Part shown: one piece after another, positions 18,557 to 45,325 of the stretch
Layout of the letters: every line of letters begins with the position of its first letter
How positions within the stretch are numbered: position 1 is the first letter of the stretch
NCBI RefSeq assembly: GCF_016901775.1
Contig: NZ_JACJKW010000002.1
Location: 1-64,000, forward strand
Direction of reading: 5' to 3'
Length of the DNA: 64,000 bases
From: Intestinimonas butyriciproducens
Lineage (GTDB): Bacteria; Bacillota; Clostridia; Oscillospirales; Butyricicoccaceae
Made by a program: the position numbers and the translations under genes
The notes under the pieces: generated by a model
Told to the model about the DNA's origin: nothing
Databases searched by the model: none
What the model saw: only the letters and a program-made list of their open reading frames with translations

Positions 18557-18583
18557 AAAGAAAGGAAAAGCTTTCCTTTCTTT
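18557..18583. repeat. 27-bp perfect palindrome upstream of the ImmA-like operon
   Basis: AAAGAAAGGAAA, a 3-bp centre and TTTCCTTTCTTT form a perfect palindrome, 32 bp before the ATG of the 89-residue gene. It could be an operator or a hairpin in the leader. Confidence 0.55.
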
Positions 18584-18592
18584 TACAATACC

Positions 18593-18823
18593 ACAGCCCT
18601 TGTCCCATAAACAGGACAAGGGCTATGGTCGTCCGAAAAACGATATAGCAAAAAGAATGTCCGCCTTTTTTGATCCGTAAAAAGTGGCGACCTGTGCGTC
18701 ACTTTTTACACTTCTCAAGAGGCAAGTGCGGGTTAAAGCGTGCACGCAGCCCCTTGCAAAACTCGAAAAAGTGGATTCGCCACTTTTTCGAAGCCAACAG
18801 CCCTTGTCCCATAAACAGGACAA
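18593..18823 (-). repeat. Terminator-flanked structured repeat, copy 1
   Basis: This is a 177-bp core (18620-18796), oriented on the minus strand, between two copies of a 27-bp direct repeat (18593-18619 and 18797-18823). The repeat unit contains the hairpin arms CCTTGTCC and GGACAA. In the minus orientation the core reads TCGAAAAAGTGG hairpin, GCAAGGGGCTGC, CACTTGCCTCTTG, then a hairpin with 10-bp stem (18677-18686 with 18700-18709) around the 13-nt loop ACGCACAGGTCGC. It is homologous to the copies at 42693 and 45069. It lies in the gap between the 89-residue gene and the Cys-rich gene. It is non-coding; reading frames across it are chance. Confidence 0.85.
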
Positions 18824-18856
18824 AAGCCGTGGCGGCACAAACTGTGCCGCCACGGC
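18822..18856 (-). terminator. Terminator of the Cys-rich protein gene
   Basis: GCCGTGGCGGCACA pairs with TGTGCCGCCACGGC; on the minus strand it is followed by TTTTG. It abuts the direct repeat of element copy 1. Confidence 0.6.
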
Positions 18857-35390: not shown

Positions 35391-36364
35391 GGCCCTTTTT
35401 CTTTGCGCTGCCCCTGGGTGCTCTTCTGGATCTGCTGCTGGGGGACCCCCGGTGGGCGCTGCCCCATCCGGTGGTGCTCATGGGCAAGGCCATTGCTTTC
35501 TTGGAAAAGATTTTCCGCCGGATTTTGCCCAAAACCCCTGGAGGAGAGCGGATGGGCGGCGCATTGCTGGCCCTTTGTTTGCCACTGGGATCATGGGGGA
35601 TCTCCTTTTTGATTTTGTGGGCGCTGGGGCTGATTCATCCCATTCTGGCCTTTTTGGCGGAGAGCTTTATGTGCTATCAGATTCTGGCCGGGCGCAGCCT
35701 GTGGGACGAGAGTATGCTGGTTTATAAAGAACTACGCAAAGGGGATCTGGAAGGGGCCCGGCGCATGGTGGGACGCATTGTGGGCCGGGATACCCAAGCC
35801 CTTTCGGCAGAGGGTGTCACCCGGGCGGCGGTGGAGACGGTGGCGGAAAACACCGGCGACGGTATCATCGCTCCTTTGTTTTTCCTCATGCTGGGCGGGG
35901 CCCCTCTGGGCTTTTTCTATAAAGCGGTGAACACCATGGACAGCATGGTGGGATACAAAAACGACAGATACCTGTATTTTGGGTGCATCCCCGCCCGGCT
36001 GGACGATGTGATGAACTTTCTGCCGGCCCGGCTGGCCGGGGCCTTGATGGTGCTGTCGGCTTTTCTGCTGCCGGGATACCGGGGGAAAAATGCCTTTTCC
36101 ATCTGGCGGCGGGACAGGCGGAACCACAAAAGCCCCAACTCCGCCCAGACCGAAGCGGCCGCCGCCGGGGCTTTGGGTGTGGAGCTGGCGGGAAGCGCCT
36201 ACTATTTTGGGAAGCTGGTGGAAAAGCCCACCATTGGTGATGCGCTGCGGCCTATCCAGCCGGAGGACATTCCCCGGGTGGGAAAACTCATGTTCTGCAC
36301 CAGTTTTTGCTGCCTGCTTTTGTGTCTTGGCGGGCGGCTGATTTTGTGGGGAGGGATTTTGTGA
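35387..36364 (+). CDS. cbiB: CbiB, adenosylcobinamide-phosphate synthase
   Basis: CbiB attaches the aminopropanol phosphate linker to adenosylcobyric acid. The 325-residue membrane protein shows LLLGDPRWALPHPVVLMG, quoted as GDPRWALPHPV, ETVAENTGDGIIAPLFF, KAVNTMDSMVGYKNDRY and HKSPNSAQTEAAAAGAL. GGAGGAGCGGAA precedes the ATG. Confidence 0.95.
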   Translation: MRPFFFALPLGALLDLLLGDPRWALPHPVVLMGKAIAFLEKIFRRILPKTPGGERMGGALLALCLPLGSWGISFLILWALGLIHPILAFLAESFMCYQILAGRSLWDESMLVYKELRKGDLEGARRMVGRIVGRDTQALSAEGVTRAAVETVAENTGDGIIAPLFFLMLGGAPLGFFYKAVNTMDSMVGYKNDRYLYFGCIPARLDDVMNFLPARLAGALMVLSAFLLPGYRGKNAFSIWRRDRRNHKSPNSAQTEAAAAGALGVELAGSAYYFGKLVEKPTIGDALRPIQPEDIPRVGKLMFCTSFCCLLLCLGGRLILWGGIL

Positions 36365-37425
36365 AACTGATCCATGGAGGAGATGTGGAAGGATTCCGGG
36401 AGGAATTTGGCCGGGAGCCTTTGGATTTTTCGGCCAACATCAGCCCCTTGGGGCTGCCGGAGGGGGTGCGCCAGGGGGTGATCCATAGCCTGCGTGAGGC
36501 CACCCAGTATCCCGACCCGCTGTGCCGCAAATTGCGCCGGGCCATTGGGGAAAAAGAGGGGATCGATCCGGAATACATCCAGTGCGGCAATGGAGCCGCC
36601 GACCTGATTTTCCGGTTGGTGCTGGCGGGGCGGCCCCGGCGTGCACTGGTCACCGCCCCCACCTTTGCCGAATATGAGCAGGCCCTCACCGCCTTTGGCG
36701 GTGAGGTGGAGCGGTATCTGCTGACAAAAGAGGAAGGCTTTGCCCTGACGCCCCGGTTTCTGGAGGCCTTGGAAGGAAAGCCGGACATGGTCTTTCTCTG
36801 CAATCCCAACAACCCCACCGGAAACCTGATTGCCCCTTCCTTGCTCCGGCAGATCTGGGAAAAATGCCGGGAAAAGGGCATTTTACTGGTGGTGGATGAG
36901 TGCTTCCTCTCCTTTTTGCCCCGTCCCTGGGAGCACACTCTGAAAAAAGAGGTACAGGAAGGAGCGCCCCTGCTTTTGCTGCGGGCCTTTACCAAGCTGT
37001 ATGCCATGGCGGGCATCCGATTGGGTTATTGCCTGTGCGGCGACCGGCAGCTGCTTTCCCGGATGGCTGGAGTGGGACAGCCCTGGGGCGTGTCGGTGCT
37101 GGCCCAGGAGGCCGGCCTGGCGGCCTTGCAGGAAGATCAGTATGTGGAGAATGTACGGGCTCTTATTGGGCAGGAACGCCCCTGGCTGTGGCAGCAGCTG
37201 GAACGGGCCGGAGTGCATGTGGTGGGCGGCAGCGTCAACTACCTGTTCTTCCGCAGCGATGTGCCCCAGCTGGGAGAAAAAATGCGGCGCCTGGGCGTGA
37301 TGATCCGTTCCTGTGCCAATTATCCCGGCCTGAGCGAGGGCTGGTACCGGGTGGCGGTGCGCACCCGGGAAGAAAATCAGCGTCTGGTGGATTGCATCCG
37401 CCAGGCGGGAGAGGGGGATCGGTAA
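36361..37425 (+). CDS. cobD: CobD, L-threonine-O-3-phosphate decarboxylase
   Basis: CobD is a PLP enzyme that makes the (R)-1-amino-2-propanol phosphate used by CbiB. The 354-residue protein is a class I/II aminotransferase fold: [40 protein letters not shown] and the PLP lysine in [14 protein letters not shown]. It starts at GTG overlapping the cbiB stop, with GGGAGGG upstream. Confidence 0.93.
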
Positions 37426-37426
37426 C

Positions 37427-38944
37427 ATGAAAAAAGCCAAGTCCATCATGATCCAGGGCACCATGTCCAATGCCGGCAAAAGTCTGCTGTGCGCCGGGCT
37501 TTGCCGCATCTTTCACCAGGACGGCTACAAGGTGGCCCCCTTCAAAAGCCAGAACATGGCCCTCAACAGCTTCATTACCAAAGAGGGACTGGAAATGGGC
37601 CGGGCCCAGGTGGTGCAGGCCGAAGCGGCAGGGGTGGAGCCCGATGTGCGGATGAATCCCATTCTGCTCAAGCCCACCAGCGATGTGGGAAGTCAGGTGA
37701 TCCTTCGGGGCCAGGTGCTTTCCACTATGCCCGCCCGGAAGTATTTTGCCTATAAACACAAGCTGATCCCCTCTATTTTGGAGGCCTACGATTCCCTGGC
37801 CGCCGAAAATGATATCATCGTGTTGGAAGGAGCAGGGAGTCCGGCTGAGATCAATCTAAAACAGCAGGACATCGTCAACATGGGTATGGCCCGCATGGCG
37901 GGAGCGCCGGTGCTTCTGGCCGGAGACATCGACCGGGGCGGCGTGTTTGCCAGCCTGTATGGCACGGTGGCCCTGCTGGAAGAAGAAGAGCGGCAGCGAA
38001 TCCGGGGTCTGATTGTCAACAAATTCCGGGGGGATGTGGAGATCCTCCGTCCCGGCCTTTCCATGCTGGAAAATTTGACCCGGGTGCCGGTGGTGGGCGT
38101 GGTGCCCTATCTGTCGGTGGACATCGAGGAAGAGGACAGCCTGGCCGCCCGCCTGGACAATGAAGCACCTGCCTTGGTGGATATCGCCGTCATCCGTCTG
38201 CCCCGGCTTTCCAACTTCACCGATTTTGCCGCCCTGGAGCGGACCCAGGGAGTGGGCGTGCGGTATGTGTCCCGCCCTTCTCAGCTGGGCGAGCCCGATC
38301 TCATCATTTTGCCCGGGACCAAAAACACCATGGGCGATCTGCGCTGGCTCCGGGAAAGCGGCCTGGAAGGGGCTATTCTCAAAAAAGAAAGCCAGGGCGT
38401 GCCCATTCTGGGCATTTGCGGCGGTTATCAGATGCTGGGGCAGGTCTTGCGGGACCCCCTGGGTGTGGAAGAGGGAGGCAGCCTGCGGGGCTTGGGTCTT
38501 TTGCCCATCGAAACCGATTTTCTGCCTCAAAAGACTCGCACCCAGACCCAGGGGCATATCACAAGGGCCCAGGGCTTTTTTGCTCCTTTGGAAGGCTGCG
38601 CCTTCCAAGGCTACGAGATCCACATGGGAGAGACACGGCATTTGTCCGGCGACCCTGCCGCAGCCCTCACGGGAGAGGGATGGGAGAAGATGGATGGAGC
38701 CTCCCAGGGAAATGTGCTGGGCACTTATGTCCACGGCATTCTGGACGGGGGCGAGCTTGTGCAGAAGCTGGTTTCCCTGCTCTTTGAGAGCAAAGGCCTG
38801 GACCCCCGGCAGGTGGAGCAGATGGATTACAAAGCTTACAAAGAGCAGCAATATGACATTCTGGCCGACGCCATCCGGCGCAGTCTGGATATGGACAAGG
38901 TGTATCAGATATTGGAAGAAGGAGCCAAGGAGGAACGGCCATGA
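37427..38944 (+). CDS. cbiP: CbiP, cobyric acid synthase
   Basis: CbiP amidates side chains b, d, e and g with glutamine and ATP. The 505-residue protein has [36 protein letters not shown], and [13 protein letters not shown] in the synthetase part. The glutaminase part has [12 protein letters not shown] with the nucleophilic Cys, and GYEIHMGET. It lies one base after the cobD stop. Confidence 0.95.
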
Positions 38945-39582
38945 CAGGAAAATTGGAAACACAGAACCCGGCCGGCATCGAAAAGCGCAGCTTTGAGATC
39001 ATCACAAAGGAACTGGGCGACCGTCATTTTTCTCCGGAGCAGGAACCGGTGATCAAGCGGGTGATCCACACCACAGCGGATTTTGAGTATGCCGATTCCC
39101 TGTATTTTTCCCCGGAAGCGGTGGAAAAGGGCATCGAAGCCATCCGGGAAGGGGCCCACATCGTCACCGACACCAACATGGCATACAGCGGTGTGAGCAA
39201 AAAGACCCTGGAAGGCCTTGGCGGTGCGGCCCACTGCTTCATGGCCGATGCCGATGTGGCCAAAGAGGCCAGGGAGCGGGGGGTGACCCGGGCGGTGGTG
39301 TGCATGGAGCGGGCTGCTTTGATCAAGGCTCCCCTGATCATCGCCGTGGGCAACGCCCCCACGGCTTTGCTGCGCCTGTGCCAGCTGATGGAGGAGGGAA
39401 AAATCGCTCCCCGGCTGATCATCGGTGTGCCGGTGGGCTTTGTCAATGTGGTGGAGAGCAAGGAGGAAGTGATCGCTTCCAAAGCTCCCTGCATTGTGGC
39501 CCGGGGACGGAAGGGGGGCAGCAATGTGGCTGCGGCCATTTGCAATGCCCTGTTGTATCAGGCCTCGGGACGGGTACTGTAA
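38941..39582 (+). CDS. cbiC: CbiC, cobalt-precorrin-8 methylmutase
   Basis: CbiC moves the methyl group from C11 to C12 to give cobyrinic acid. The 213-residue protein has [10 protein letters not shown], the catalytic His in [40 protein letters not shown] and [14 protein letters not shown]. It is the last gene of the operon; a strong terminator follows. Confidence 0.95.
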
Positions 39583-39594
39583 AAAGAAAAAGGA

Positions 39595-39632
39595 AAAAAC
39601 AGGCTCGGGTTTTCACCCCCGAGCCTGTTTTT
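39595..39632 (+). terminator. Intrinsic terminator of the cobalamin operon
   Basis: AAAACAGGCTCGGG and CCCGAGCCTGTTTT form a long stem followed by T residues. Confidence 0.9.
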
Positions 39633-39884
39633 TATGATATGAGCAAAGATAAAAACACAAAAGTTGGATTTTTATGCGGAATGCCACTGTTTTTCTGCAC
39701 TTTGATGTGTTACAATAAATATAAATATTTTCAAAAAAAATAAAATTGCCTTAAAATTTGCTGTCATGTCGAAACAATTCAGAGGAATGGCGAAAAGTAA
39801 AAGGCGCAAAAAGGAGGGATGGAGAAGGGAATATGCATTTTATATTCACAAATGGAAAAGGAAAAAGGGGGGACGGGTCGTAAC
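39633..39884 (+). promoter_or_regulatory. AT-rich leader region of the DUF1538 gene
   Basis: The stretch is AT-rich. An extended -10 element (TG, one base, TACAAT at 39708-39716) is visible without a clear -35. An AAGGAGGG at 39811-39818 precedes a possible 16-codon leader frame (ATG 39833, stop TAA 39881-39883) that ends one base before the DUF1538 start. I see no hairpin of note. Confidence 0.35.
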
Positions 39885-41423
39885 ATGCCAAACAAATTGG
39901 AAATCAGAAGAAGTGCTCTGCGAAAGATTCGGGAAAAGTTTCTGGAATCTTTTAGCGCCGTAATACCTATTGGTTTGATCGTACTGCTGCTTCATTTTAC
40001 CATCGCCCCCATGCCAGGGGGAACATTCGGCTCCTTTTTGGTGGGGCTTGTTTTGCTGATTGTGGGGATGTGCCTGTTTTCTTTGGGGGCAGATCTGTCC
40101 ATGATGCCCATGGGTGAACGGATCGGCGCACAGCTGACCCGTTCCAAAAATCTGAAATTGTTGATTATCACTGCGCTGGTGATGGGGGTGCTCATCACAG
40201 TGGCCGAGCCCGATCTCCAGGTGCTGGCCCGGCAGGTGCCGGCTGTACCGGATAAACCGCTGATTTTTTTGGTGGCGGCAGGAGTGGGTCTGTTTTTGGT
40301 GGCCGCTCTTTTGCGCATTATTTTTCAAAAAAGCCTGCGTTTGATTCTGATGGTCTGCTATGGCTTGGTGTTTTTCCTGGCTATTTGGGTGCAGCCGGGA
40401 TTTCTGCCGGTGGCTTTTGACTCAGGCGGCGTCACCACGGGCCCGATTACGGTGCCCTTTATTCTGGCGCTGGGCATTGGTGTGGCCGCCGTTCGGGGCG
40501 GACGCAGCGCCCATGACGACAGCTTCGGTTTGGTGGCCTTGTGTTCCATTGGCCCGATTTTGTCGGTGCTGCTGCTCAGCCAGTTCTATGATGCAGCTGG
40601 CGGCGCTTATGGCGCCACTGTGCCGGAGACGCCTCACAGCCTGGGCGAGATCCTTTTGCAATACATTCAGGCATTTCCCCATTATGCCAAAGAGGTGCTC
40701 ATTGCCCTTCTGCCCATTCTGGGGGCTTTTGCCTTGTTTCAGGTGCTTTTTCTCCGCTTGCCCCGGCGCCAGATGATTAGGGTAGGGGTGGGCGCTGCCT
40801 ACACCTATGTGGGATTGGTGCTCTTTCTCACCGGGGCCAATATTGGCTTTTTCTCCGCCGGCAATTTCCTGGGCGGCGCCATTGCCGCACTGTCCTACCG
40901 GTGGGTGCTCGTTCCCATCGGCATGGTGATGGGGTTCTTTGTGGTGGCCGCTGAGCCTGCGGTGCATATTCTCAACAAGCAGGTGGAAGAGATCTCCGGT
41001 GGCACCATCTCCCGCAGCGCCATGCTCATCAGCCTGATGTGCGGTGTGGCCGTTTCCCTGGGACTGGCCATGGCACGGGTGATCTGGGGGCTGAGCATCT
41101 GGTATTTCCTTCTGCCCGGTTATCTGGTGGCTTTGGTGCTCACTTTATTTGTGCCCAAAATCTTTACCGCTGTGGCATTTGACTCAGGCGGCGTGGCCTC
41201 CGGACCGATGACGGCCACCTTCCTTTTGCCTTTTGCCATGGGGGCCTGCCAGGCCATGGGAGGCGATGTGCTCTCCGATGCCTTTGGCATCGTGGCCATG
41301 GTGGCCATGACGCCTTTGCTGGCCATTCAGCTGCTGGGACTGTGGTCGGTGTACCGCCAGAAGAAGCAGCCCAGGGAGGAATTTGCCCTGGATGAAACCG
41401 AACTCATCGAAATGGAGGGATAG
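39885..41423 (+). CDS. DUF1538 polytopic membrane protein
   Basis: The 512-residue protein has about twelve hydrophobic helices in two homologous halves. Each half carries the motif VAFDSGGV: VTTGPITVPF follows it near residue 177 and ASGPMTATF near residue 430. Each also has a matching ADLSMMPMGER-like region and AEPDLQVLARQV / AEPAVHILNKQV. The duplicated fold with a conserved Asp-Ser-Gly-Gly suggests a transporter or channel. The family has no established function. ATG 39885 is a choice; in-frame starts at 39852 and 39819 exist. Two PII-like genes follow directly. Confidence 0.8.
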   Translation: MPNKLEIRRSALRKIREKFLESFSAVIPIGLIVLLLHFTIAPMPGGTFGSFLVGLVLLIVGMCLFSLGADLSMMPMGERIGAQLTRSKNLKLLIITALVMGVLITVAEPDLQVLARQVPAVPDKPLIFLVAAGVGLFLVAALLRIIFQKSLRLILMVCYGLVFFLAIWVQPGFLPVAFDSGGVTTGPITVPFILALGIGVAAVRGGRSAHDDSFGLVALCSIGPILSVLLLSQFYDAAGGAYGATVPETPHSLGEILLQYIQAFPHYAKEVLIALLPILGAFALFQVLFLRLPRRQMIRVGVGAAYTYVGLVLFLTGANIGFFSAGNFLGGAIAALSYRWVLVPIGMVMGFFVVAAEPAVHILNKQVEEISGGTISRSAMLISLMCGVAVSLGLAMARVIWGLSIWYFLLPGYLVALVLTLFVPKIFTAVAFDSGGVASGPMTATFLLPFAMGACQAMGGDVLSDAFGIVAMVAMTPLLAIQLLGLWSVYRQKKQPREEFALDETELIEMEG

Positions 41424-41425
41424 CT

Positions 41426-41785
41426 GTGGCAAAAAAAACAGAAGAAAGCCGCCGGATCCTCCTGTTTGTGGCGGTGGCGGCCCGGGGACAGGGAGAGAAG
41501 ATCGCCACCTTCTGCGCCTCCTGCGGCGGAAAGGTACGCCTGGTGGCCCTGGGAAGGGGTACTGCCAGCCAGGATATCCTCAACTACCTGGGCCTGGGGG
41601 ACAGCAAGAAGGATGTGGTGCTGTGCACCGCGGCCCGTCCGGCAGCCCAACGGATGCTGGAGGGAATGAAAGAGAAGTTTTCCATGGACAGCCCTGGCGA
41701 AGGCATTGCCTTTACCATCCCGGTATCCAGTGTGGTGGGCCGGGTAAGTTTTGAACTGCTGCTGGGGGGAAAGGGAGAGCAATGA
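41426..41785 (+). CDS. PII-like small protein, first of a pair
   Basis: The 119-residue protein has the alternating pattern of the ferredoxin-like PII fold: RRILLFVAVAARGQGEKI, a loop with ALGRGTASQDILNYLGLGD, KDVVLCTAA, and the C-terminal strand GIAFTIPVSSVVG. It starts at GTG, 12 nt after GGAGGG, at the end of the DUF1538 gene. It is more divergent than the next protein, and the classical T-loop residues are absent. It probably senses a small molecule and acts on the membrane protein; this is inference from operon position. Confidence 0.65.
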   Translation: MAKKTEESRRILLFVAVAARGQGEKIATFCASCGGKVRLVALGRGTASQDILNYLGLGDSKKDVVLCTAARPAAQRMLEGMKEKFSMDSPGEGIAFTIPVSSVVGRVSFELLLGGKGEQ

Positions 41786-42120
41786 AAGAAAACGAATTGA
41801 TCGTAGCCATTGTGGAGCGGGGCTATGCCGACGATGTGATGAAGGCGGCCCGGTCGGCCGGGGCCAGAGGGGGCACCATCCTTCATGCCCGAGGGGCTGG
41901 AAATGAGGCACGGGACCGTTTTTACGGTGTGACCATCCAGTCGGAGAAAGAAATGGTACTGCTGGTGGTGGAAAAAGAGCACAAGGCGGGCATTATGAAA
42001 GCCATCTGTGCCCAGGCCGGGCTCAATCAGGAGGCCCGGGGTCTGGTATTTTCCCTTCCGGTGGAGGATGCTGTGGGAATGGCGCCGGAGGACAGCCTGC
42101 CCGATCTTTCGCAGCAATAG
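41782..42120 (+). CDS. PII-family regulatory protein, second of a pair
   Basis: The 112-residue protein matches PII well at GYADDVMKAARSAGARGGTI (quoted to 20), then LHARG, a short T-loop region (GNEARDRFYGV), VLLVVEKEHKAGIMKAI and GLVFSLPVEDAVG. PII proteins are trimeric sensors of nucleotides and metabolites that block or open membrane transporters. It overlaps the preceding gene by 4 bp. The T-loop Tyr used for uridylylation in enterobacterial GlnB is not evident. Confidence 0.8.
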   Translation: MKENELIVAIVERGYADDVMKAARSAGARGGTILHARGAGNEARDRFYGVTIQSEKEMVLLVVEKEHKAGIMKAICAQAGLNQEARGLVFSLPVEDAVGMAPEDSLPDLSQQ

Positions 42121-42121
42121 G

Positions 42122-42156
42122 AAAAAGGCTTCTGGCATTGTGTCAGAAGCCTTTTC
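42122..42156. terminator. Bidirectional intrinsic terminator
   Basis: AAAAGGCTTCTG pairs with CAGAAGCCTTTT, between the PII gene and the convergent NUDIX gene. Confidence 0.85.
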
Positions 42157-42163
42157 CATTTGT

Positions 42164-42676
42164 TCAGATGTTCAGAGCTTTTTTCAGCGCAGGACAGAGC
42201 AGGAGCAGGGTTTTGCCGATGGGAGCGGCCAGACGGCCGGTACGGGCCATTTCCAGCAATACTTCATAGGAAACACGGCATACGGCCACCGTTTCTCCCT
42301 TTTGCAGCCGCACATTTTTGGGATGCACGGATGAGCGCAGCAGGAAGGAGTCCATCTGTCGTCCTTTGGCCCGGGTGGAGCACAGAAAGTGCAGTTGCTG
42401 CGGCCGGGCCTGAATGCCTGTTTCCTCCTTCAGTTCCCGTAAAGCAGCCAGGGAACTTTCTTCTCCCCACTGCACACCGCCGCCGGGATTTTCCCAGCAA
42501 AGGGGATATTCCTCTTTTTCCGGGCTGCGTAAAGTGAGAAGAAAGCGGTTTTCCTTGTCTACGATCCACACTCCTACCGCTTTGTGGAATGTGCCGGGGG
42601 GCAGAGGCTCGCCCCGGGGATGGGGATGGGGAAGGGGTGCGCCGGTTTGTTCATCGTAAAGCTGCCAAAATTCCAT
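42164..42676 (-). CDS. NUDIX hydrolase
   Basis: The 170-residue protein carries the full NUDIX box (GGGVQWGEESSLAALREL then KEETGI), which binds the divalent metals for pyrophosphate hydrolysis. The upstream GTFHKAVGVWIVD and WENPGG resemble Idi/YfcD-type enzymes acting on isoprenoid or nucleotide diphosphates. The substrate is not certain. The ATG at 42676 follows GGAGGA. A longer frame running upstream crosses the repeat element and is not real. Element copy 2 begins 17 bp upstream of the start. Confidence 0.88.
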   Translation of the reverse strand: MEFWQLYDEQTGAPLPHPHPRGEPLPPGTFHKAVGVWIVDKENRFLLTLRSPEKEEYPLCWENPGGGVQWGEESSLAALRELKEETGIQARPQQLHFLCSTRAKGRQMDSFLLRSSVHPKNVRLQKGETVAVCRVSYEVLLEMARTGRLAAPIGKTLLLLCPALKKALNI

Positions 42677-42692
42677 AAATCCTCCGAGAAAA

Positions 42693-42926
42693 GAAAGGGG
42701 CGGCTGAGCCGCCCCTTTGAGCGTGTCGAAAAAGTGGCTTGAGCCACTTTTTCGAGTTTTTGCAAGGGGCTGCATGCACGCCTTCGGCGCACACTTGCCC
42801 CTTGATAGGTGCAAAAAGCCACGCACAGGTCGCGGCTTTTTGCGAATTGATGAAGGGTAGGGCAAACGATCTTTTCGTTATATAGGTTTCTCGATAGTCT
42901 GAAAGGGGCGGCTGAGCCGCCCCTTT
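42693..42926 (+). repeat. Terminator-flanked structured repeat, copy 2
   Basis: This is a 182-bp core (42719-42900) between two identical 26-bp direct repeats (42693-42718 and 42901-42926). Each direct repeat is a complete hairpin, GGGGCGGC with GCCGCCCC. The core has a hairpin AAAAAGTGGC/GCCACTTTTT (42729-42752), a stem CAAGGGG/CCCCTTG (42763-42804) enclosing a small CGCC/GGCG hairpin, and a 10-bp stem 42811-42820 with 42834-42843 around the loop ACGCACAGGTCGC. The right-hand hairpin with its T run is the terminator of the aminotransferase region; orientation of the core is opposite to both neighbouring genes. Confidence 0.88.
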
Positions 42927-42952
42927 TTGCATATCAATGGAATCAAAATAAG

Positions 42953-44098
42953 TTATTTTGCCATTTCTTCCAGATAGACGCCCACGGCCTTGCCGTAAGG
43001 CACATTCTGGCCGCACTGATTCATGGCTCTTTCAATGACGCCCAGCACAGCCACTTCATCATTGATGTCGATGTTGCCCATGTGGCCCAGTCGGAACATC
43101 TTGCCTGCATAGGCGCCCAGACCGCCGGCTACGATGATGCCTTCTTCCAGCAGAGTGGCCCGGAATTTGGCATCGTCCATGCCTTCGGGATAAAGCAGGT
43201 TGCTCAGGGTCACGGCCCGGCAGCTTTCCTTGGCCAGGGGCACAAGACCGATGGCTTCCAGCGCCTTCTGCATGGCCCGGGCGTTCTTCAGGTGGCGCTC
43301 ATAGCGGGCTTTCATGCCTTCTTCCTTGATGATGCGTACCGATTCCTTCATGGCCCACACCAGGTTGATGGCCGGAGTGGCGAAGTATTTGGAGGTGTCG
43401 TCCATGATGGGCACCCACTTGTCAAAGTCGCAGTAATACTCGGGGATGACGCCCAGAGTGGCTCTTCTTTCCATAGCCTTTTTGTTGGCCCACAGCAGAA
43501 GCAGACCGGGGCAGACGCCGAAGGCCTTCTGGGAAGCGGTGAAGAGCACATCGATGTTCATCTCTGCCAGGTTTTCATATTCGCCGGCGGTGGCGGCCAC
43601 GCCGTCCACGATGTAGATGGTCTCGGGGAAGTCACGCATCACTTCGCCGATGGCGGCGATATCGGCGGCCGCACCGGTGGCGGTGTCCACATGGGTGACT
43701 GTCATGGCGGCATAATGCTTTTCGCTCAGCTTTTTGCGGATTTCTTCCGGAGAGACCACGCTGCCCCATTCGGCCTTCAGCACATCGGCATTGAGCCCTT
43801 TGTGCTCACAGATGTCGATGAACCGGTCGCCGAAGAAGCCGTTGGAGACGATGAGCACATTGTCCCCCCGGCGGGTCATATTGGAGATGGCCATTTCCAT
43901 CGCCAGTGTGCCGGTGCCGGCCACCACAAAGGTTTTGCCATCGCAGCCGAACAGCTGGCCCAGATCGTCAATGACGCTCTTGAAATCCTTTACAAAACGA
44001 GGATCGCCGAAGGCCTGAATTTCACGGCCCATTTCCTCCTGGATGGAGCGTACCACCGGCGTGGGGCCGGGGATCATCACCATGGTTTTCTCTTTCAT
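42953..44098 (-). CDS. Alanine-glyoxylate/serine-pyruvate family aminotransferase
   Basis: The 381-residue PLP enzyme shows MIPGPTPVVRSI at the N-terminus, VVAGTGTLAMEMA, VTHVDTATGA, IVDGVAATAGEYE and the PLP lysine in FTASQKAFGVCPGL. This set fits class V aminotransferases of the AGXT/PucG group acting on glyoxylate, serine, alanine or ureidoglycine. The gene is divergent from an IclR regulator and has its own promoter and a palindrome in its leader. A GTG at 44110 is an alternative start. Confidence 0.88.
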   Translation of the reverse strand: MKEKTMVMIPGPTPVVRSIQEEMGREIQAFGDPRFVKDFKSVIDDLGQLFGCDGKTFVVAGTGTLAMEMAISNMTRRGDNVLIVSNGFFGDRFIDICEHKGLNADVLKAEWGSVVSPEEIRKKLSEKHYAAMTVTHVDTATGAAADIAAIGEVMRDFPETIYIVDGVAATAGEYENLAEMNIDVLFTASQKAFGVCPGLLLLWANKKAMERRATLGVIPEYYCDFDKWVPIMDDTSKYFATPAINLVWAMKESVRIIKEEGMKARYERHLKNARAMQKALEAIGLVPLAKESCRAVTLSNLLYPEGMDDAKFRATLLEEGIIVAGGLGAYAGKMFRLGHMGNIDINDEVAVLGVIERAMNQCGQNVPYGKAVGVYLEEMAK

Positions 44099-44134
44099 TA
44101 TCAAAAGCACCCCTTTTCAAAACGATGGAAGCTG

Positions 44135-44151
44135 ATTTCACAAAGTGAAAT
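44135..44151. promoter_or_regulatory. Palindromic operator candidate in the aminotransferase leader
   Basis: ATTTCAC, centre AAA and GTGAAAT form a perfect 17-bp palindrome 37 bp before the aminotransferase start. The TTTCA half-site recurs at 44259-44278. Confidence 0.55.
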
Positions 44152-44179
44152 GATATTTCGATTCCATTTTTCTGCTTTT

Positions 44180-44208
44180 ATTGTAGCATCCCCATGGGGG
44201 AAAGTCAA
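44180..44208 (-). promoter_or_regulatory. SigA promoter of the aminotransferase gene
   Basis: On the minus strand TTGACT, a 17-bp spacer and TACAAT. Confidence 0.7.
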
Positions 44209-44230
44209 AGGAGGATGCGACGAAAATCCG

Positions 44231-44278
44231 TTGAGGATTCCGTGCAAATAGTCTATAATTTCATTGTGTAAAATGAAA
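44231..44278 (+). promoter_or_regulatory. Promoter and operator of the iclR-type gene
   Basis: TTGAGG (44231), a 17-bp spacer and TATAAT (44254-44259). The -10 box runs into an inverted repeat TTTCAT, 8 bp, ATGAAA (44259-44278), placing a probable autoregulatory site at the transcription start. Confidence 0.6.
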
Positions 44279-44293
44279 CGGGGAGGAAGAACC

Positions 44294-45070
44294 ATGGAAA
44301 AGAAGCTGGCCAAAGTGAATCAATCGGTGGAAAAGGCATTGCAGCTGGTAGAGGTGCTGGCTTCTTCCCGGGAGCCCATGCGACTGGGGGATCTGGCGGC
44401 GGCCTGCGGCCTTCCGGCCAGCACCACGCTGCGTCTGGTAAACACCCTGCTGCTTCATGGCTATGCCAATCAGGACCCGGTGACGCTGCGCTATTCTCTC
44501 ACGCTGAAATTTGCCCAGATCGGCAGCCAGGTCTCTTCCCAGATGGATATCCGCAACCTGGCCCATCCCTGGCTGCTGGAGCTTTCCAGCCGGTGCGGGG
44601 AAAGCTGCTGCCTGGCCATTGAGGAGAACCGGCAGGTGGTTTATGTGGATGTGGTGGAAGGCCCCGATGGAATGCTGAAAATCATGCAGCGCATCGGAAA
44701 AAGGGCACCTTTGTACTGTACCGGCGTGGGGAAGATCTTTCTGCTCAACGACGATGCCGCCTCCCTGGAACAGTATATCGCAGAAAATGGTCTGGAACCC
44801 CTGACTTCCCACACCATCACCACCCGGGAAGGGCTGCTTTCGGAACTGGACAGGATCGGGCGCCAGGGATATGCCCTGGACGATGAAGAGTGCGAGCAGG
44901 GAGCCCGGTGCGTGGCTGCCGGGGTGCGGGATTACACGGGAAAAGTGGTGGCTGGCATCAGTGTTTCCGGCCCGCTGCACCGGATGGAGCCGGAACACAT
45001 CCGCCGGATCATTCCCCAGGTCCAGCGCACCGCCCAACGCCTGTCCCAGCTTCTGGCCTACGAAGAATAA
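44294..45070 (+). CDS. IclR family transcriptional regulator
   Basis: The 258-residue protein has an N-terminal winged helix (KVNQSVEKALQLVEVLA, LAAACGLPASTTLRLVNTL in part) and the IclR effector domain (LYCTGVGKIFLLNDD, GYALDDEECEQGARCVAAGVRD in part, ISVSGP). Such proteins bind small carboxylates and control divergent metabolic genes. Its neighbour, the aminotransferase at 42953, is the likely target. ATG 44294 has GGGAGGAAGA upstream. Element copy 3 begins at its 3' end, where the terminator would be. Confidence 0.9.
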   Translation: MEKKLAKVNQSVEKALQLVEVLASSREPMRLGDLAAACGLPASTTLRLVNTLLLHGYANQDPVTLRYSLTLKFAQIGSQVSSQMDIRNLAHPWLLELSSRCGESCCLAIEENRQVVYVDVVEGPDGMLKIMQRIGKRAPLYCTGVGKIFLLNDDAASLEQYIAENGLEPLTSHTITTREGLLSELDRIGRQGYALDDEECEQGARCVAAGVRDYTGKVVAGISVSGPLHRMEPEHIRRIIPQVQRTAQRLSQLLAYEE

Positions 45071-45325
45071 AAAGAGCGTGCCGTCTGGCACGCTCTGAGC
45101 ATGTCGAAAAAGTGGCAGGAGCCACTTTTTCGAGTTTTTGCAAGGGTCTGCATGCAGCCGATTGCTGCTTTTAGCGTCCAATCGGCTACACTTGCCCCTT
45201 GAAAGGTGTAAAAACCGACGCACAGGTCGCCGGTTTTTGCGGATTGATGAGGGGGAGGGCACATATTTCTCTCCAGCTGGATCAGTCTTTCGACCGCAAA
45301 AAGAGCGTGCCGTCTGGCACGCTCT
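45069..45325 (+). repeat. Terminator-flanked structured repeat, copy 3
   Basis: This is a 201-bp core (45097-45297) between two identical 28-bp direct repeats (45069-45096 and 45298-45325). Each is the hairpin GAGCGTGCC / GGCACGCTC. The core has the AAAAAGTGGC/GCCACTTTTT hairpin (45106-45129), a CAAGGG/CCCTTG stem with a larger internal hairpin (GCCGATTG with CAATCGGC, 45157-45186), and the stem 45208-45217 with 45231-45240 around the invariant loop ACGCACAGGTCGC. It sits between the convergent iclR-type gene and recR, where one bidirectional terminator is expected but two identical ones are found. Confidence 0.88.

Follow-up and report, generated by a model that had tools for sequence, protein, structure and literature searches.

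In the two systems that serve as models for PII control of membrane transport, AmtB-GlnK and SbtA-SbtB, a trimeric PII protein docks on and blocks a trimeric transporter (PMC10710835 and PMC8352866, accessible portions), and, among known cases, PII control is said to be confined to transporters able to be trimers (PMC10710835, same portion). Among DUF1538 proteins, the UmpAB pair of Halomonas zhaodongensis has been reported as a Na+(Li+,K+)/H+ antiporter with a pH profile, seven membrane segments being predicted for UmpA and for UmpB, and it worked in E. coli with no PII partner mentioned in the accessible portion of the report (PMC5484666). This evidence for antiport stems from one group's complementation of salt-sensitive E. 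coli, in which an RDD, a UPF0118 and an MFS protein also scored; in addition, DUF1538 is named among pH-adaptation features in the accessible part of PMC13255231. A partnership between DUF1538 and PII proteins was found described nowhere in the literature searched, which covered sources outside subscription journals: PII is not mentioned in PMC5484666 (accessible portion), PMC12093952, PMC10030654, PMC5996927 or PMC6055358, and the lone match to "PII" in PMC7221264 is a peptide motif.

The window analysed here, a stretch of 64,000 nucleotides from Intestinimonas butyriciproducens, encodes on its forward strand a two-domain DUF1538 membrane protein of the fused UmpA+UmpB type, followed by two small PII-like proteins. 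To our minds, these genes fairly probably specify a cation/proton antiporter controlled by dedicated PII-like trimers and organised as a three-gene operon. The three genes look like one operon because terminator-like elements bound the unit on both sides: a palindrome (39594..39633) between cbiC and the unit, and a hairpin with a 15-pair stem directly 3' of the second PII gene (42123..42155, forward strand). A weak sigma-70-like promoter candidate, a consensus match only (9/12 positions), lies in the AT-rich gap upstream (39728..39757, forward strand). The neighbours of the unit are cobalamin genes (CobQ-type, CbiC) on one side and, on the other, a NUDIX gene that runs convergently. Rfam cis-regulators such as riboswitches for Na+ or c-di-AMP were absent beside DUF1538 in 11 + 20 loci and from positions 36000-45000 of the window; a T-box in locus L034 was dismissed as a DUF1538 regulator, being on the opposite strand.

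Several repeats are seen elsewhere in the window. A dispersed repeat of ~150 bp with palindromic arms occurs at 42693-42935 and 45069-45325 and has at least 40 near-full-length copies in the genome at 84-100% identity, among 91 candidates of which 40 were scored; it looks like a miniature mobile element or a REP-like one. Between 55900 and 56380, a 118-nt direct repeat is found three times (60-76% alike, ~180 nt apart), and at 18581-18832 a partly palindromic 48-nt repeat with CCCTTGTCCCATAAACAGGACAAGGGC occurs twice, 204 nt apart.

The DUF1538 reading frame is open from 39819 to 41423 (534 aa), and we favour a start at ATG 39885, the position also taken in the earlier note, which homology and a purine-rich stretch support and which would give a protein of ~512 aa (39885..41423). 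Pfam DUF1538 (PF07556) matches it in two stretches (E 6.3e-138; 457.4 bits against a cut-off of 22.6), while with 159 of 490 and 148 of 500 bits it falls short of the NCBIfam equivalog cut-offs for UmpA and UmpB (NF041627, NF041628), and by sequence comparison the protein is a relative of UmpA/UmpB outside both equivalogs. That it is a duplicated protein with VAFDSGGV in each half, as the earlier note on this DNA had proposed, is borne out by the two Pfam stretches and by the DNA itself, which encodes the motif in both halves within sequence repeated at 40410-40480 and 41172-41242 with 73% identity. The alignment of DUF1538 proteins kept the best 80 of 583 relatives. Near-invariant in each half, single genes included, are a Glu of the EP motif, an Asp of the FDSGG motif and a basic residue, namely E130, D201 and R166 in the first half (39972..40583, forward strand) and E379, D455 and R420 in the second (40716..41342, forward strand). 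It is plausible that this set forms an ion and proton site.

As for fold, the AlphaFold2 model of the DUF1538 protein (pLDDT 91.2, pTM 0.89) gave no Foldseek match at E <= 0.001, and VIA returned a best Z of 4.9, with NCX_Mj (Z 4.4), CLC, MATE and elevator transporters within noise. These searches used the whole model of >400 residues rather than single halves, with SbtA absent from the matches listed, and the absence of a clear PDB match is not proof of a new fold. A model without a standout PDB fold would also sit well with a PII-regulated transporter of another substrate – ammonium, bicarbonate, another cation or an organic ion – for which antiport is a side activity. PII-regulated transporters elsewhere carry ammonium, bicarbonate, nitrate and urea (PMC10710835, accessible portion), and the sole functional report comes from the salt-sensitive E. 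coli screen in which, as mentioned above, proteins of other, unrelated families scored besides UmpAB. Against this stand the antiport with pH profile reported for UmpAB (PMC5484666, accessible portion), the two conserved carboxylates plus one basic residue per half, which suit cation/proton exchange, and the listing of DUF1538 among pH-adaptation features (PMC13255231, likewise in part), so that we regard another substrate as a doubtful, if sizeable, possibility.

The two halves differ in the side of the membrane that carries their positive charges. With sides A and B set by shared alignment columns, and seven crossings per half read from the model helices, Lys+Arg are in excess on side A in 119/119 fused first halves and on side B in 119/119 fused second halves, the window being included in both counts. 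In its own case, Lys/Arg lie on the A-side loops of the first half and the bias is A<B in the second. Gene pairs behave alike, 27 of 28 first members and 27 of 28 second members having charge biases in opposite directions, and single DUF1538 genes are mixed (7 A, 3 equal and 2 B; n=12). Since the Lys/Arg bias is opposite in the halves and mixed in single genes, the charge pattern shows, at the level of topology prediction, that the two halves are antiparallel in the membrane, and a dual-topology ancestor fits. The N-terminus of the first half is probably cytosolic. Taken from charge bias and model helices, the protein thus has the UmpAB-like trait of two homologous halves in opposite orientation with seven segments each.

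Of the two small genes, the first (41426..41785, forward strand; GTG start) encodes 119 aa homologous to domain 1 (D1) of tandem PII proteins, and the second (41782..42120, forward strand; ATG start) 112 aa of the domain-2 (D2) type; they share 4 nt (ATGA). The second protein matches Pfam P-II (PF00543; E 5e-13, 49.7 bits against a cut-off of 25) and is the sole PF00543 match in the window's genome. For the first, Pfam gave no match at E <= 0.01, and a sequence scan of genome contigs with this protein alone gave no matches. Profiles of the two families, however, align by hhalign with a probability of 99.9 (E 1.7e-33), and the AlphaFold2 model of the first protein (mean pLDDT 85.5), which has a short helix where the T-loop would be, finds SbtB, GlnK, PotN and CutA structures by Foldseek at E 1e-4 to 1e-3, and reaches its best Z, 11.1, against TTHA0516 (2cz4; rmsd 2.6, 89 residues aligned). 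The first small protein is therefore predicted to have a PII fold, and the reading of two overlapping PII-like genes in the earlier note stands.

Alignment of both families to E. coli GlnK (residue counts over 135 D1 and 135 D2 sequences) places them apart from the canonical proteins. In both domains, the T-loop stretch measures 14-16 residues (14-15 in nearly all) against 20 in E. coli GlnK, and Tyr51 is absent in nearly all, position 51 being mainly Leu/Phe in D1 and D2 and the window proteins having Leu and a Tyr-adjacent alignment there. The Lys90 position is Ile/Val/Leu in 134/135 D1 and 121/135 D2 (Ile/Leu in the window proteins), and the Arg101 position is Gly in 89/135 D1 and 129/135 D2, as it is in the window proteins. 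We take Lys90 and Arg101 to be ATP-site residues of GlnB/GlnK. By these sequence features, both small proteins are PII-like, not canonical GlnB/GlnK, and they should not be presumed to follow the classical ATP/2-oxoglutarate pattern. As to c-di-AMP, this signal is less common in Alphaproteobacteria, and the alphaproteobacterial cases described below count weakly against it as the general ligand. The C-terminal CGPxGC motif of SbtB is absent from both window PII-like sequences; it is conserved only in some SbtB homologues (PMC8352866, accessible portion).

Loss of the canonical ligand residues, together with obligate association, could instead mean that the PII-like proteins are fixed cytosolic subunits serving assembly or stability and not reversible regulators. 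RCK domains on K+ channels offer a comparison. Lys at the GlnK K58 position, however, is kept in 120/135 D1 and 124/135 D2, which suggests that the cleft has been kept, and the report on Halomonas UmpAB (PMC5484666, accessible portion) describes activity without naming a PII. To us, a purely structural role is unlikely.

Judged by sequence, the window carries a tandem PII protein in split form, as two genes, an arrangement also found in the closest homologues, e.g. Christensenella. A GGGAAAG heptamer within GGGGGGAAAGGGA (41764-41776) lies in a frame from which a -1 slip would lead into the second PII gene and yield the tandem form. A programmed frameshift was nevertheless rejected, as the heptamer sits in a ribosome-binding purine run and is missing at the other 19 two-gene PII junctions; in the window, GGGAAAG is probably just a ribosome-binding site. 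Nor does the split look like a sequencing error: the nearest homologues by identity are split too, frames vary among them, and most junctions inspected by eye have purine-rich, ribosome-binding-like sequence before the second gene.

Conservation of the gene set, the check called for by the earlier note, was assessed in loci that comprised the best-scoring ones (L004-L112, L118-L147), five of nine plasmid matches (L113-L117) and 40 hand-picked from lower-scoring, single-match or multi-copy rows (L148-L187), a sample that is not random and comes from Bacillota plus two alphaproteobacterial plasmids, with no Gammaproteobacteria. In this set (window excluded), PII-like gene(s) follow directly downstream on the same strand in 170/170 edge-free DUF1538 units. 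The same is true of PII in 16 of 17 edge-touching units, the contig of the remaining one (L036) stopping at the DUF1538 gene, and near-relative units add a PII-like neighbour in 7/7 more. The gap between DUF1538 and PII genes ranges from -122 to 157 nt (108 adjacent loci), and both alphaproteobacterial plasmids (Chelativorans, Methylocystis) have the gene order DUF1538-DUF1538-P-II. Three loci (L168, L169, L181) each carry two complete DUF1538-PII units in succession. DUF1538 itself occurs in 102/291 genomes of the class, 101/299 of the phylum and 0/14 control genomes; none was confirmed in viral contigs.

De-duplication left 158 units with 118 fused genes, 28 gene pairs and 12 single DUF1538 genes. 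Fused genes go with tandem PII in 109 cases and with two PII genes in nine, never with a single PII; gene pairs go with a single PII (12), tandem PII (11) or two genes (5), and single DUF1538 genes with one PII domain in 12/12. Seen against these numbers, the window's two different PII-like subunits, which had been called unusual, are a split version of the tandem PII that is the rule beside fused DUF1538.

Co-occurrence points the same way. A profile of the second PII family finds a close match beside DUF1538 in 15/15 DUF1538-bearing genomes (best E <= 6.7e-28), while 4/37 genomes without DUF1538 have a match at 1e-6, the best at only 2.5e-9. An ammonium transporter (PF00909) is present in 7/15 other DUF1538-bearing genomes and absent from the window's genome, and since the latter has neither an ammonium transporter nor another PF00543 match, the window PII-like proteins cannot serve AmtB there. 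We conclude from these sequence comparisons that they are, in all likelihood, dedicated to DUF1538, not AmtB. Could they still be ordinary nitrogen regulators that lie beside DUF1538 by chance? The second protein does score above the Pfam P-II cut-off, and genome annotations at plasmid loci label the neighbour of DUF1538 "P-II family nitrogen regulator". Such an account is already contradicted by the 170/170 neighbourhood, the specific co-occurrence, the genome without AmtB and the loss of Tyr51, Lys90 and Arg101, and we give it next to no credence. Because the neighbourhood is conserved, chance pairing is excluded, and DUF1538 and the PII-like proteins are very likely partners. Neither result that would have undone the earlier note's reading, a neighbourhood that varies or a first small protein predicted without a PII fold, was seen.

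Partnership could also run in the opposite direction, with the transporter as a sensor whose membrane binding removes the PII-like proteins from another cytosolic target, the main output lying elsewhere. GlnK is known to be sequestered at the membrane by AmtB, and two differing PII domains could split the work between the transporter and a second target. Inspection of the annotated plasmid loci found no other gene common to them, save in two near-identical Paraclostridium loci, and we think a sensor role improbable.

How the set may have arisen was inferred from an unrooted tree with 90 rows, each a second half or a single gene, 88 of them distinct as L168 and L169 were each entered twice with one sequence, and including 50/119 fused units with the window among them. 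On this tree, DUF1538 type needs two changes and PII number three. Those gene pairs that lie closest to the single genes have a single PII and the majority of pairs closer to the fused clade carry two; tandem and split PII have switched at least seven times. The simplest order is that the transporter gene was duplicated, then the PII, and that the transporter pair was fused last. A match in domain number between DUF1538 and PII, as one staircase of events, is suggestive; statistical independence for "fused with two PII" had to be discarded, just one independent pair resulting from 2 + 3 changes on the tree. The window unit is nearest to Christensenella-type split units, and horizontal transfer is possible. 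All seven close-relative loci (L197-L203, with L203 from the same genus) have tandem PII, unlike the split window unit.

Mechanistically, the following scenario may be envisaged. The DUF1538 protein would act as a pseudo-symmetric antiporter, a fused UmpAB with two antiparallel seven-helix halves, and would most likely exchange Na+/K+ for H+. The small proteins correspond to domains 1 and 2 of a PII-like regulator dedicated to this transporter. Assembled as trimers of the PII type, they would be expected to dock from the cytosolic side and either shut transport down or adjust it, following a ligand bound at the subunit clefts, as GlnK does on AmtB and SbtB on SbtA. Cation/proton antiport in this organism is probable, as carried over from one published homologue, and regulation by docking is likely by analogy; docking, trimer assembly, gating and the ligand are what we infer. 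Because the Halomonas pair worked in E. coli without PII mentioned, PII seems unnecessary for its activity there, which is compatible with an inhibitor without being proof of one. The restriction of known PII targets to transporters able to be trimers would count against the analogy should DUF1538 form no trimers, and since the T-loop, which plugs AmtB and SbtA, is shorter here, a plug-like mode may not carry over. Of the "uncharacterised regulated transport system" first suggested for this locus, PII-regulated transport remains the best reading, whereas "uncharacterised" needs amending in view of the antiporter activity reported for UmpAB (PMC5484666, accessible portion).

A bolder proposal, which we put forward tentatively and would not yet back at even odds, is that DUF1538 and its PII-like partner constitute another kind of PII-gated transporter, separate from both Amt and SbtA. 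The membrane protein would be an antiparallel cation/proton antiporter whose fold has yet to appear among solved structures, and its regulator would have been duplicated between the gene-pair stage and fusion. Two unlike PII domains would then read a cytosolic face that is itself asymmetric, tying ion and pH homeostasis to a ligand that is not ATP/2-oxoglutarate. DUF1538 is present in about a third of the class and phylum genomes sampled, yet there is one functional report, and the PII neighbour found beside nearly all relatives covered suggests a widespread, seemingly undescribed switch for ion transport. Should the partnership be real, it would add a class to the few PII-controlled transporters, would suggest that work on the published antiporter lacked the regulator and would make single, paired and fused antiparallel transporters comparable with one versus two PII domains.

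Turning to known systems, TTHA0516 (2cz4), CutA and PotN rank among the structures closest to the modelled first small protein, at under 20% sequence identity to it and with functions that are not comparable; we know of no link between them and DUF1538. UmpAB shares with the window protein the DUF1538 domains and two homologous halves (PMC5484666, accessible portion), but consists of two separate genes with no PII partner reported, whereas the window has one fused gene plus PII-like genes. SbtA-SbtB, a cyanobacterial bicarbonate transporter with its PII-like regulator, likewise has a transporter gene beside a PII-like gene; SbtA is built of two inverted repeats (PMC8352866, accessible portion), as the DUF1538 protein is of two antiparallel halves, and the SbtB fold is close to that modelled for the first small protein. 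The window differs in that the neighbour is DUF1538, whose model resembled no solved transporter clearly in the searches above, in lacking CGPxGC and in having a helical segment in place of the T-loop. AmtB-GlnK, too, is an operon of a membrane transporter and a PII-family protein; here, by contrast, the transporter belongs to another family, the T-loop is shorter, equivalents of Tyr51, Lys90 and Arg101 are missing and the genome is without AmtB. Finally, paired and fused genes arose in dual-topology families, including the small multidrug resistance family, which resemble DUF1538 in the series from single gene through opposite-oriented pair to fused gene with inverted halves. DUF1538 stands apart from them in having units of seven helices and a PII regulator that doubles as the series advances.
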